Assembly: GCA_030535235.1 (NCBI GenBank)
Contig: JAUNCL010000003.1
Span: forward strand, 46,721 to 110,720
Source: Bacillota bacterium
GTDB taxonomy: Bacteria; Bacillota; Clostridia; Oscillospirales; Oscillospiraceae
Reading direction: 5' to 3'
DNA: 64,000 bases
A program made the position numbers and the translations under genes. Under the pieces are notes generated by a model. That model saw only the letters and a program-made list of their open reading frames with translations, searched no databases and had not been told where the DNA came from. Below, piece by piece: positions 11-40,704 of the stretch; position 1 is the stretch's first letter; every line of letters begins with the position of its first letter.

Positions 11-1177
11 TTAGTGGCCCTTGCCGGACAGGACAGCGCCGGAGATAACGATCTTCTGGACCTGGTTGGTGCCCTCGAAGATGCAGTATGCCTTGATGTC
101 TCTCCAGATCTTCTCAACGCAGTCTTCCTTCATGTAGCCCTTACCACCCATCAGCTGGATAGCGTCGGTGCAGACGGACATTGCGGACTCGGTAGCGAAC
201 ATCTTAGCCATAGCAGCTTCCTTGGAGAAGGGCAGGCCGTTTGCCTGCAGGTAGTTGGCGTGGGAGACCAGCAGGCGGGAAGCCTCGATCTTGGTAGCCA
301 TCTCTGCGATCATCCACTGGATGCCCTGACGCTTGGAAACGGGAGCACCGAAGGTGACACGCTCCTTGACGAAAGCGATAGCTTCGTCCAGAGCACGGCG
401 AGCGATACCGACAGCCAGAGCGCCGACGCAAGCACGGGACTTGTCCAGGGTCTTCATAGCGAAGCCGAAGCCCTTGCCCAGACCAGCCTCACCGCCGACC
501 AGGTTGAAAGCGGGAACGCGGACGTTGTCGAACTTCAGGGAGCAGGTGGAGATGGTACGGAAGCCGGACTTGTCCTCATACTTGGTGACGGAGAAGCCGG
601 GGGTGCTGGTGGGAACCATGAAAGCGGAGATGCCCTTGGTGCCAGCGGAGGGATCGGTCATAGCGAAGACGCAGACGATGTCAGCCTCGCCGCCGTTGGT
701 GATGAAGCACTTCTCACCGTTGATGACCCACTCGTCGCCGTCCTTGACAGCAGTGGTCTTCACGTTGGAAGCGTCGGAACCGGACTGGGGCTCGGTCAGA
801 GCGAAAGCAGCGTAGCCCTTGCCTTCCAGGATGTGCTTAGCAAAGTACTGAACCTGCTCGGGGGTGCCACCGATCAGGATGGGCTTCAGAGCCAGGTTGG
901 TGGTCTGCATGACGGAAGCGAAGTTGCCGTCATAGTAGCCCATCTCTTCGTACATGACCTCAGCAACGTCCAGGGGAACCTTGTTGCCGCCGAATTCCTT
1001 GGGGATCTCGAAGGAGTTCAGGCCCAGCTTGAATGCCTTCTCATAAGCATCGAAGGGGATAGCCTTGGAAGGATCAACGACCTTGTCCCAATCCAGCATG
1101 ATGGGCTCGATTTCCTTCTTAGCGAACTCGCCGATAATGTCGACCCACTTCTTCTGTTCTTCGTTCAGTAAACGCAT
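11..1177 (-). CDS. acyl-CoA dehydrogenase (short-chain / butyryl-CoA type)
   Basis: A 388-residue flavoprotein of the acyl-CoA dehydrogenase family, which oxidises acyl-CoA to trans-2-enoyl-CoA (or reduces crotonyl-CoA in butyrate formation) with electron-transferring flavoprotein as partner. The N-terminal helical domain is followed by the FAD/substrate motif ALTEPQSGSDAS and the beta domain. The C-terminal helical domain carries QLMGGKGYMKE and IFEGTNQVQ, whose Glu368 is the expected catalytic base. Length is normal for the family. The ATG start is preceded by GGAGGT. Codon choice (CGT, GCT, GTT more common than in neighbouring genes) suggests high expression. The electron-transfer partner genes, if adjacent, lie outside the window. 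Exact acyl chain length cannot be read from sequence. Confidence 0.93.
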   Translation of the reverse strand: MRLLNEEQKKWVDIIGEFAKKEIEPIMLDWDKVVDPSKAIPFDAYEKAFKLGLNSFEIPKEFGGNKVPLDVAEVMYEEMGYYDGNFASVMQTTNLALKPILIGGTPEQVQYFAKHILEGKGYAAFALTEPQSGSDASNVKTTAVKDGDEWVINGEKCFITNGGEADIVCVFAMTDPSAGTKGISAFMVPTSTPGFSVTKYEDKSGFRTISTCSLKFDNVRVPAFNLVGGEAGLGKGFGFAMKTLDKSRACVGALAVGIARRALDEAIAFVKERVTFGAPVSKRQGIQWMIAEMATKIEASRLLVSHANYLQANGLPFSKEAAMAKMFATESAMSVCTDAIQLMGGKGYMKEDCVEKIWRDIKAYCIFEGTNQVQKIVISGAVLSGKGH

Positions 1178-3562: not shown

Positions 3563-3565
3563 ATA

Positions 3566-3913
3566 GAGCAAGCGAGCCTGTAAGCCGGGTTCTGTTCTCG
3601 ACAGCCATCTATCTTGGCGCACCGTTGCCGGTGCGCTCCAGCCACCTCCTCGGGGAGACCGGGCCGGTCTCAGCTCCCCTCCACGGTGTTGCTCCGGATA
3701 GAGTTTACAGCACCGGACACTTCCGAGCCGGCGGGTGAGCTCTTACCTCACCTTTCCACCCTTACCTGGCAGAGCCAGGCGGTATCTCTCTGTTGCACTT
3801 GTCCTGAAGTCGCCTTCGGCGGGCGTTACCCGTTATCCTTGCCCTGTGGAGCCCGGACTTTCCTCATGGACGGCCTTTCGGCCTGGCCACGCGGCTGTCC
3901 GGCTCACTTGCAC
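3566..3913 (-). ncRNA. rnpB: RNase P RNA, bacterial class A
   Basis: The catalytic RNA of ribonuclease P, which trims tRNA 5' leaders. Read on the minus strand it has the hallmark GAGGAAAGTCCGGGCTCC near the 5' end, ACAGAGAG and GGTAAGGGTGGAAAGGTG in the centre, and the universal 3' block AGAACCCGGCTTACAGGC. P1 is visible as GCAAGTGAGCC at 3911-3901 pairing with GGCTCGCTTGC at 3578-3568. About 348 nt. It lies directly after the CotH-like gene, and its promoter overlaps the end of that gene. Confidence 0.96.
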
Positions 3914-34033: not shown

Positions 34034-35008
34034 ATGCGGGAATTTACCATTGGCGGCAACGACGCCGGACAGCGGCTGGACCGCTGGCTCAGCAAGACCC
34101 TTCCCCTCCTCCCGGCTCCCCTGGCCCAGAAGTACATCCGCATCAAGCGGGTGAAGCTCAATGGAAAGGGGGCCAAGCGGGACACCCGCCTCCAGAAGGG
34201 GGATCTTCTCCAGCTCTATATCAACGACGAGTTCTTCGACCGGCCCACCCCGGAAAACGCCTTCCTGTCGGTCTTCAAGCCCCAGCTGGACATCGTCTAC
34301 GAGGACGAGAACCTGCTGCTGCTGAACAAGCGGCCGGGCATGGTGGTCCACCCCGACGAGAATGAGCGGGTCAACACCCTCCTCACCCACATCCAGGCCT
34401 ACCTTTATCAAAAGAAGGAGTGGTCCCCCTACTGGGAGAACTCCTTCGCCCCCGCCCTGTGCAACCGCATCGACCGGAACACCGGCGGCATCGTCATCGC
34501 CGCCAAGAACGCCGAGACCCTGCGGATCATGAACCAGAAGATCCGGGACCGGGAGATCGAAAAGTCCTACCTCTGCATCGCTCTGGGTTCCCTGAATCCC
34601 CCGGAGGGAAAGCTGGAGAACTTTCTGGTCAAAGACGAGGCGAAGAAGCAGGTCTCGGTCCACAACCGGCCCGTGACCGGCGGCCGCACCGCCGTGACCC
34701 TCTACCGGACCCTGGCCAAACGAAACGGCCTGTCCCTGGTGGAGTGCCGCCTCATCACCGGCCGCACCCATCAGATCCGCGCCCAGCTGGCCGCCGCCGG
34801 CCATCCCCTCCTGGGGGACGGCAAGTACGGCCGGGAGCGGGACAACAAGCGTCTGGGCCGCACAGGGGGGCAGGCCCTGTACTCCTATAAGCTCTCCTTC
34901 CCCTTCCCCACCGACGCGGGCTGCCTGGACCACCTCCGGGGCAGGACCTGGACCATCCAGACCGTGGACTTCGTGGAGGAATACTTCCCCGGCGTCACCG
35001 TGGATTGA
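34034..35008 (+). CDS. RluA family pseudouridine synthase
   Basis: A 324-residue enzyme that isomerises uridine in rRNA. An N-terminal S4 RNA-binding domain (about 1-60) precedes the catalytic domain with NRIDRNTGGIV, whose Asp147 is the nucleophile, and ITGRTHQIRAQLAAAGHPLLGD. It resembles the RluC/RluD subgroup, but the target site cannot be assigned. AAAGGCGG precedes the ATG. Single gene. Confidence 0.9.
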   Translation: MREFTIGGNDAGQRLDRWLSKTLPLLPAPLAQKYIRIKRVKLNGKGAKRDTRLQKGDLLQLYINDEFFDRPTPENAFLSVFKPQLDIVYEDENLLLLNKRPGMVVHPDENERVNTLLTHIQAYLYQKKEWSPYWENSFAPALCNRIDRNTGGIVIAAKNAETLRIMNQKIRDREIEKSYLCIALGSLNPPEGKLENFLVKDEAKKQVSVHNRPVTGGRTAVTLYRTLAKRNGLSLVECRLITGRTHQIRAQLAAAGHPLLGDGKYGRERDNKRLGRTGGQALYSYKLSFPFPTDAGCLDHLRGRTWTIQTVDFVEEYFPGVTVD

Positions 35009-35018
35009 GGGGTTTGCC

Positions 35019-35047
35019 TTGACAGGCAGAGGATATCTGTATATAAT
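35019..35047 (+). promoter_or_regulatory. perfect consensus promoter with no conventional gene downstream
   Basis: TTGACA (35019-35024), 17-base spacer, TATAAT (35042-35047). The predicted transcript starts near 35054 and meets a terminator at 35112-35149. Confidence 0.9.
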
Positions 35048-35053
35048 AAGGAT

Positions 35054-35149
35054 ACAGGAACTGCGGCAAGCGGTTTCAGTCCAATTTTGGTTTAGCTAAA
35101 TGATGTATTTAGAAACCGTCACTTGGCCGAGTGGCGGTTTCCCCTTTTT
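35054..35149 (+). ncRNA. predicted short RNA convergent to the small reading frame
   Basis: Bounded by the consensus promoter and by a terminator of 12 pairs (GAAACCGTCACT with AGTGGCGGTTTC, 35112-35141, one G-U) followed by CCCTTTTTA. It has no reading frame with a ribosome binding site. It is antisense to the last codons and the 3' part of the minus-strand small-ORF transcript, so an antisense RNA is the natural guess. Existence of the RNA is inferred. Confidence 0.6.
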
Positions 35150-35202
35150 ATACGGATCGTTACCGTACATCCGAAGATGTGTAACGTAATCGTAACGGGC
35201 AT
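35119..35202 (-). CDS. 27-residue micropeptide, type I toxin-like setting
   Basis: Minus-strand ATG at 35202 with AAAGGAGGTGA ideally spaced, the strongest ribosome binding site in the window. The peptide begins MPVTITLHIFG, continues with a second hydrophobic/beta-branched stretch, and ends in a basic RIKRGNRHSAK tail. At about 16 apolar residues it is short for a membrane helix. The ribosome binding site pairs with CCTCC just upstream across a GAAA tetraloop (35212-35225 region), so the primary transcript should be translationally closed. A consensus promoter lies at 35274-35302. SD sequestration plus a convergent RNA is typical of type I toxins such as the fst family. I do not recognise the peptide. 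Confidence 0.55.
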   Translation of the reverse strand: MPVTITLHIFGCTVTIRIKRGNRHSAK

Positions 35203-35273
35203 GGCCTCACCTCCTTTCGGAGGGTGTGGCTGAAACCGCCTGCCGTTGCTGCAGTACCTGTATCCGCACTCAG

Positions 35274-35302
35274 TTTTTAGCACGCCCGTCGGAATCTGTC
35301 AA
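35274..35302 (-). promoter_or_regulatory. promoter of the micropeptide transcript
   Basis: TTGACA (35302-35297), 17-base spacer, extended -10 TGC-TAAAAA (35279-35274) on the minus strand; start near 35268. Confidence 0.8.
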
Positions 35303-35341
35303 ATCTTGGCGCAAATCCCCCTCGACTTTTTTCTGTCCCTG

Positions 35342-35376: not shown

Positions 35377-35562
35377 ACTCTTCTATTTGGAAAACAGGAT
35401 GTTGAGTCTTTCCAAAGCAAGACACGACCGCTGACCGGGGGCGTCCCCGTTCCCGCCAGCCAAGGCCACACGGACAGCCGGGTCGAATGCCGAGCTCCGC
35501 ATGATGCGGCGGCAACTTCTGTTGCCTTATTGATTGGGTTAAAAGCCCAAGTTTTATAAGTT
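35377..35562 (+). ncRNA. structured non-coding RNA upstream of potABCD
   Basis: About 185 nt after a consensus promoter with no supported reading frame. Stems visible: GGGG-gcgt-CCCC near 35438-35449; GCCG...CCGCA-tga-TGCGG-CGGC near 35489-35513; GGCAAC-ttct-GTTGCC at 35511-35526; TTGGG-ttaaaag-CCCAA near 35535-35551. Single-stranded purine-rich joins (CCAAAGCAAGACACGACC) look conserved rather than random. Size, clade and style would fit a large structured Firmicutes RNA such as the raiA motif, but I cannot confirm a family from memory. It could be a free sRNA or the aptamer part of the potA leader. Confidence 0.55.
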
Positions 35563-40662: not shown

Positions 40663-40704
40663 GGGATTTCACCTCCTTTTCCCTCTCAGCATAGCAGAGG
40701 GAAA

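Follow-up and report, generated by a model that had tools for sequence, protein, structure and literature searches.

A predicted type I toxin-antitoxin module with a beta-patterned peptide in a genome of the Oscillospiraceae

A 64,000-nucleotide stretch of a Bacillota bacterium from the family Oscillospiraceae (assembly GCA_030535235.1, contig JAUNCL010000003.1, positions 46,721 to 110,720; hereafter the window, in whose coordinates all positions are given) contains a module of ca. 310 bp, which is most probably a type I toxin-antitoxin locus comprised of an mRNA for a predicted toxic peptide and an antisense RNA. The module occupies 35010..35320, with approximate limits, and is absent between the rluA gene and the potA leader in relatives of the same genus. 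From the sequence patterns described below we conclude that a peptide of strongly beta-strand-like pattern would stand here in place of the helical membrane toxin usual for type I systems. The case is built in silico on the peptide and its conservation at the codon level, both promoters, the terminator of the small antisense RNA (sRNA), a co-evolving stem between the leader and the tail of the mRNA, a hairpin over the Shine-Dalgarno sequence (SD), and an RNA scaffold also found in loci of the Hol_Tox family.

The peptide gene (35119..35202, minus strand, 27 codons, ATG...TGA) translates to MPVTITLHIFGCTVTIRIKRGNRHSAK and, given its frame and family conservation, is predicted to be type I toxin-like. 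A preliminary description of the window, made from the letters alone, had proposed this frame as a micropeptide gene with a hidden ribosome binding site. The frame is real, as a search with the peptide gave hits in 56 of the 300 family genomes, the own genome included, in 33 of 106 genera and with at most six matches per genome. The CCTCC-GAAA-GGAGG hairpin over the ribosome binding site was confirmed as well: its core lies at 35210-35223, within the segment 35204-35230 (minus strand, GCCACACCCTCCGAAAGGAGGTGAGGC), and its pairing with the SD is seen both in the fold and across the family. The SD itself, AAAGGAGGTGA, is an exact 11-base match but not a unique one, as the identical 11 bases recur at 40669-40679 of the window; at least two matches with at most one mismatch arose in 26 of 100 shuffles, so that the motif alone is not beyond chance. 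Similarly, the promoter of the peptide mRNA (35274..35302, minus strand, from the sequence and the family promoter scan) has the perfect -35 box TTGACA at 35297-35302 and a 17-base spacer, but its -10 box, TAAAAA at 35274-35279, agrees in four positions of six, and it is absent from the output of the promoter scan. The 12/12 consensus promoter of the region, TTGACA-17-TATAAT, is located on the plus strand at 35019..35047 (promoter scan and family scan), and is directed away from the peptide gene, at an antisense RNA that had escaped the preliminary description.

We place this putative antitoxin sRNA of ca. 95 nt, complementary to the 3' part of the peptide mRNA, at 35054..35148 on the plus strand, based on the sequence and on a covariance model, whose match (G000:C41:81771-81872 in the own genome) corresponds to 35051-35152 of the window. 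Its terminator, identified by sequence and covariation, is comprised of a hairpin at 35112-35141 and a T tract (35112..35148 in total, plus strand), and extends over the final codons of the peptide frame. Promoters were scored out of 12 in 158 family copies with full flanks, 141 of them with the whole peptide core. The sRNA-side promoter scores at least 9/12 in 157 of the 158 and 12/12 in 61%, compared to 18% and 0% in single-base shuffles. In 123 dereplicated copies, the terminator stem shows compensatory changes, including columns outside the search pattern; one pair is AT in 70 copies, CG in 42, and GC in 9, and compensatory pairs are also found in the 39 sRNAs used for the model. A C-A mismatch on the mRNA strand is a G-U pair on the sRNA strand in 120 of these 123 copies, and hence the hairpin suits the sRNA rather than the mRNA. 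On the sRNA strand, at least four T are present among the ten bases after the stem in 109 of the 123. Thus, at the sequence level, an antisense RNA gene opposing a predicted toxin mRNA, as is characteristic of type I systems, is present with its promoter, terminator, and complementarity.

The full-length peptide mRNA is predicted to span ca. 223 nt (35045..35267, minus strand), with the start placed from the -10 box and the end from a run rich in T that lies opposite the sRNA start. In 116 copies, such a run comes after the closing stem on the mRNA strand and is, by inference, a plausible mRNA end. The sRNA terminator hairpin was considered as an mRNA terminator and set aside; the C-A mismatch in its mRNA-strand stem is conserved, and no clear T run follows it in 31 inspected loci. 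The segment 35275-35085 folds with z = -3.96, and the full mRNA, taken as 35272-35043, with z = -8.41, none of 200 shuffles being equally stable. As judged by inverted repeats and the fold, the 5' leader arm of the closing stem (35231..35265, minus strand) imitates the 5' end of the sRNA, and the 3' tail arm (35050..35078, minus strand) is antisense to that end. The sRNA 5' end and the mRNA leader are nearly identical in sequence (inverted repeats I1 and I2), and for this reason the leader is complementary to the tail of its own mRNA; in the window, they form 28 pairs.

The same closure is found throughout the family. Of the 123 copies, 84 had both promoters placeable within the set limits and were folded; the other 39 were dropped. 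At least six leader-tail pairs are formed in 83 of the 84 predicted full mRNAs, with a median of 19; of the 81 family mRNAs with a recognized SD, 77 have it paired. Leader and tail of the same copy form a duplex of -36.1 kcal/mol on average, compared to -25.3 kcal/mol for swapped pairs; in 83 of 84 cases the own tail binds more strongly than swapped tails do on average, and in 24 it ranks first. When sequence similarity is used instead of duplex energy, the signal is weaker (114 of 123). The consensus fold of the 84 mRNAs aligned with MAFFT was mostly uninformative; besides the terminator, it retained seven leader-tail pairs and three in the SD hairpin. A long-distance interaction between leader and tail of the full-length mRNA, as in hok and aapA, is therefore present, given the predicted mRNA ends.

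To describe the peptide family, we searched loci collected by peptide similarity and by a DNA pattern of the sRNA terminator. The latter takes no account of the initial two thirds of the peptide sequence, and yielded at least 120 stretches of species genomes and 11 viral contigs. A hidden Markov model (HMM) run on 162 loci recovered 172 frames, 155 of them distinct, with no frame in nine loci. The whole core (His-8) is present in 152 of the 172 frames, and in 149 of these either position 1 or position 3 is a start codon; the remaining 20 are mostly matches to the tail only. There are two main forms, MPITLTFHIFGYTVTIRVK..NRHSAK and MRITLHIGAFTVTIIVK..NRHSAK. At higher ranks, a search with a 49-row alignment matched 24 of the 394 genomes sampled from the order, 2 of 391 from the class, and 6 of 398 from the phylum, with the own genome counted each time; two of these matches are doubtful, as the other match in the class (G856) covers only the tail and one in the phylum (G1285) lies inside a 478-residue frame. 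One genome from another lineage of the phylum (G1248) has ten peptide matches (L221, L225, L228, L230-L236), some of them near contig ends and some with frames ending right after NRH.

By several measures, the peptide is under purifying selection. In 106 cores, the entropy at the three codon positions is 0.91, 0.56, and 1.65, and identity in frame is 0.53, compared to 0.23-0.44 in the five other frames. The pN/pS ratio is 0.44 over all pairs of these cores, with pS near saturation, and 0.62 over the 586 closer pairs. Hence the locus carries a small peptide gene with promoter and ribosome binding site that is conserved as a protein, another feature of the type I class. The peptide had been described as apolar first and basic last, which is roughly correct; more exactly, the apolar residues alternate with T or H. 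Among six angles, the apolar moment of the two segments peaks at 180 degrees (2.94 and 2.25; 1.00 and 0.70 at 100 degrees), a periodicity with the pattern of two amphipathic beta strands. In the tail, S/K and P/R residues covary (95 S-K, 20 P-R, and 6 others, n = 121), as they lie on the two arms of the terminator stem. Moreover, as this stem overlaps the last codons, much of the NRHSAK tail is an RNA element read as codons. The stop comes immediately ahead of NRH in three frames (L207, L050, L058), and directly behind it in four divergent ones (L231, L234, L235, L236).

No match above the cut-off was found for four members in Pfam, NCBIfam, and PHROGs; phrog_4193, of unknown function, matched one member below the cut-off (E 0.0027). 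Rfam 15 yielded no match up to E 1 in 34990-35340, and in open-access literature on type I systems, small proteins, and Clostridia, seen mostly as listings, we recognized nothing as the beta-peptide family. In Vescimonas fastidiosa, found as a match in a plasmid collection, no gene is annotated at the match position.

We infer transcription of both genes, toxicity of the peptide, its neutralization by the sRNA, the involvement of RNase III, and activation by 3' processing, and the module might work as follows. The minus-strand mRNA encodes a 27-residue peptide with two segments of alternating apolar and polar residues and a basic tail, most likely toxic once made. The stronger promoter of the opposite strand would produce the antisense RNA of ca. 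95 nt, with its 3' end within the peptide gene. At full length, the mRNA is probably not translated, with its leader paired to its tail and the local hairpin masking the SD. The sRNA, which matches the leader in sequence at its 5' end, would pair with the mRNA tail and the last codons and cause decay of the mRNA, presumably by RNase III, as for RatA and SR4. If the sRNA were lost or outpaced, trimming of the mRNA 3' end would release the leader from the tail, so that translation could begin.

Parts of this scheme are known from other systems. According to the sections of PMC7430163 used here, in txpA/RatA and bsrG/SR4 of Bacillus subtilis the sRNA pairs with the 3' end of the toxin mRNA and the SD is partly sequestered, and the SR4 promoter is stronger than that of the toxin; systems with a 3' overlap act by RNase III decay, SR4 also by SD masking. 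Our module is similar in the 3'-end pairing, the partly sequestered SD, and (for SR4) the stronger sRNA promoter; its sRNA is shorter (ca. 95 nt compared to 222 and 180 nt for RatA and SR4), and mimicry of the leader by the sRNA is not mentioned in those sections. The comparison concerns the RNA design. The same holds for aapA/IsoA of Helicobacter pylori, a member of a different phylum, and for hok/Sok, whose full-length mRNAs, according to the portion of PMC6733600 consulted, are locked between the 5' and 3' ends and need 3' trimming for translation; the leader-tail lock is alike, and here a separate local hairpin covers the SD. Type I modules of Clostridioides difficile, as far as described in excerpts of PMC6563280, encode a small peptide and an antisense RNA, and several are located in prophages. 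Their toxins have 34-59 residues and a transmembrane domain, unlike the beta peptides of ca. 25-33 residues, which have no such helix by hydropathy. By analogy, the module seems to combine the 3'-overlap design of the sRNA with the design of an mRNA locked between its ends.

The sRNA is not restricted to beta-peptide loci. The covariance model, R1, was built solely from sRNAs of the beta-peptide family, 39 in number, that of the window included. Among 16 genomes of the genus, it matched 14 at a nominal E of at most 0.1 and 10 at E of at most 0.001, and the peptide is present in only eight. We inspected 13 further R1 loci by eye: five face another small frame, two (L295, L296) are remnants of beta modules, and in six no frame was seen. 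The five other frames (L284, L288, L291, L294, L297) were thus reached through the sRNA model, without recourse to peptide similarity. One, MVTFEVLLQYTMVIIAIIALINGRKK, resembles Hol_Tox (E 0.00054, 20.2 bits, under the cut-off of 23.3); the others are two further hydrophobic peptides and two MxxFW.. peptides. These four gave no meaningful match in Pfam, and none of the five matched NCBIfam. In all five loci, the sRNA promoters score 11-12/12 and 23-27 leader-tail pairs are formed. The 19-residue hydropathy of three peptides sharing the scaffold is 2.15-2.46.

In the reverse test, we searched 120 genomes of the family for PF16935, named 'Putative Holin-like Toxin' in Pfam, and found 20 places in eight genomes, ten of them above the Pfam cut-off; B. 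subtilis was positive as a control. Established type I toxins, TxpA and BsrG among them, belong to this family. On the opposite strand, at or adjoining the end of the frame, R1 matched 13 of the 20 places at E of at most 0.001 and 15 at E of at most 0.1; for the ten genes above the cut-off, these numbers are 9 and 10. Of 11 Hol_Tox loci inspected, 7 have a leader of the form GGCGTT..GCGGTTAGC, and at least 14 leader-tail pairs are formed in 9 of 10 folded ones, with none in L305. Like the module of the window, these loci, from the same bacterial family, have an opposite-strand sRNA at the frame end and closure between leader and tail. By contrast, the Hol_Tox peptides are strongly hydrophobic (2.46 in one example, compared to 1.11 for the beta peptide), and most of their frames stop just before the sRNA terminator, which the beta peptide reads into. 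These comparisons point to the same kind of RNA scaffold in the beta-peptide modules and the Hol_Tox loci. In one locus (L310), a Hol_Tox-like frame below the cut-off and two beta modules are located within 0.8 kb.

This shared scaffold bears on the alternative in which the locus encodes a dual RNA/peptide regulator, or a signaling or antimicrobial peptide under antisense control, and no self-toxin. The peptide is amphipathic and has a basic tail, and apparently orphan sRNA loci (see below) mean that the RNA may have further targets; the scaffold, however, is common to a toxin family, and nothing was found in favor of signaling, though no search for signal peptides or exporters was made. We consider this alternative rather improbable. 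Returning to the toxin-antitoxin reading, we give about equal weight to accepting and to doubting a wider proposal, in which clostridial type I modules would be an exchangeable cassette with one co-evolving RNA scaffold (a leader mimic, a locked mRNA, and an sRNA with 3' overlap) and alternative toxins, one of them a new class that would act as a beta-hairpin or self-assembling beta peptide and not as a transmembrane helix, with a tail overprinting the antitoxin terminator. We rate the class, type I, as already known, the toxin family as new, and the RNA scaffold as shared.

The distribution of the module is patchy. A close match to potA (at least 86% identity) is present in 12 of the 16 genomes of the genus, the own genome included, and in the other 11 of these loci (11/11) the module is absent upstream of potA; in six (L165-L169, L174), the end of rluA runs straight into the potA leader. 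Another copy is located on a different contig of the own genome. There, at L002/L289 (G000:C6, ~193200-194300), the second full module adjoins an apparently orphan sRNA gene, and the neighboring upstream frame reads into the remnant. Some copies are phage-borne. Eight of the 11 viral loci were inspected, and single proteins from six were tested; phage-type proteins were found in all six, namely portal and head protein (L155), a terminase (L159), a structural protein (L152), and an anti-repressor (L157), with an integrase within ~0.4 kb of the module copy in L158 and L160.

The copies may also be numerous, up to ten peptide matches in a single genome, with tandem copies mostly ~290-455 bp apart. 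This multiplicity, the patchy presence, and the inverted-repeat ends would speak for a small selfish or mobile repeat, similar to a miniature inverted-repeat transposable element, in which the peptide frame would be incidental. We hold this to be quite improbable, given codon-level selection on the peptide, the near-perfect convergent promoters and terminator, the co-evolution of each leader with its own tail, and the other toxin-like frames on the same scaffold.

For a toxin-antitoxin module, the loci without a whole peptide frame are informative. Among the 142 matches to the sRNA terminator, the core is complete and in frame in 110, a divergent frame is present in four (L053, L140, L142, L158), and a whole frame is missing from 28, so that neither the frameshifts nor the lack of codon-level conservation that would speak against the gene are seen in the family at large. 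The 28 include two frames cut before NRH (L050, L058), two apparently frameshifted (L083, L093), one cut by a contig end (L080), eight with no recognizable frame, and 12 with the tail only. The sRNA promoter scores at least 10/12 in 24 of 27 scorable loci without a whole frame, compared to 104 of 109 whole-core loci, whereas the peptide-side promoter is at background (at most 8/12) in 19 of 26 loci without a whole frame and 24 of 107 whole-core loci. Loci without a whole frame thus mostly keep the sRNA promoter and lose the peptide-side one, an asymmetry as in toxin-antitoxin pairs, which suggests that the antitoxin is tolerated without the toxin. In L078, upstream of 308-333 (plus strand), another short reading frame, MKFTVTVVVEFLDCVLRIVFKKK, stops immediately ahead of this terminator and is possibly another type of toxin. 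That the locus is a structured non-coding RNA pair, with the frame a by-product of a palindromic RNA, is very unlikely: part of the coding RNA does fold on a UUCG hairpin and the last codons overprint the sRNA terminator, but variation is greatest at the third codon positions and very low at the second positions of several T codons, the internal hairpin is missing from the consensus fold of the 84 mRNAs, and the core is kept whole in the 110 loci counted above.

Several observations weigh against a type I toxin-antitoxin module. A hydrophobic transmembrane helix is usual, although not obligatory, in type I toxins, and by hydropathy it was not found in 120 members, none of which reaches a mean of 1.6 over 19 residues (median 0.99). 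The Hol_Tox profile PF16935 did not match the beta peptide in four members up to E 1. The peptide-side promoter scores at least 9/12 in only 75% of the 158 copies (17% in shuffles), and in the five loci with other frames it scores 8, 8, 8, 10, and 11, three of these being background. The sRNA promoter, in turn, scores only 7-8 in 3 of 109 whole-frame copies, and the sample of 142 loci, as it was chosen on the sRNA terminator, would miss toxins without it. The SD hairpin still forms in a shortened mRNA with the tail removed, and so the fold does not explain how this hairpin opens and translation starts. The E-values of R1 are rough, and the leaders of Hol_Tox and beta loci are clearly alike in only about half of ten cases: five beat the best shuffled leader by at least five points, two by 2.5, and L302 by one, L300 and L304 do not, and the medians hardly differ. 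Still, the type I reading of the preliminary description is supported by the convergent antisense RNA gene, the co-evolving closed mRNA, and purifying selection on the peptide, and further by the patchy, multi-copy, and partly phage-borne spread and by the scaffold common with a holin-like toxin family.

If this reading is true, a toxin-antitoxin family is widespread in gut Clostridia and lacks annotation in the one annotated record examined; its peptide differs from the membrane helices described in the consulted parts of the papers cited above, and toxins would be exchangeable on a conserved scaffold of RNA antitoxin. Combinatorial networks have been reported for protein (type II) antitoxins (PMC10440598, as far as its consulted part goes), and our literature search on exchanged toxins found no combinatorial case for RNA antitoxins. 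The opening of the locked mRNA would become directly testable, and the sRNA model would find toxin candidates without peptide similarity.

In the window, the peptide gene is flanked on one side by an rluA-like gene and on the other by the leader of a polyamine-type ABC operon; the names rluA, potA, and ABC operon were assigned by reading translations. The long leader before the potA-like gene contains, at 35425-35493 (plus strand), a match to Rfam RF02440 (SpF59/ldcC RNA, 60.2 bits). As it ends in a terminator-like repeat, it resembles a regulatory leader of a polyamine-type transporter operon. In addition, the window carries a bacterial class A RNase P RNA at 3565-3910 on the minus strand.
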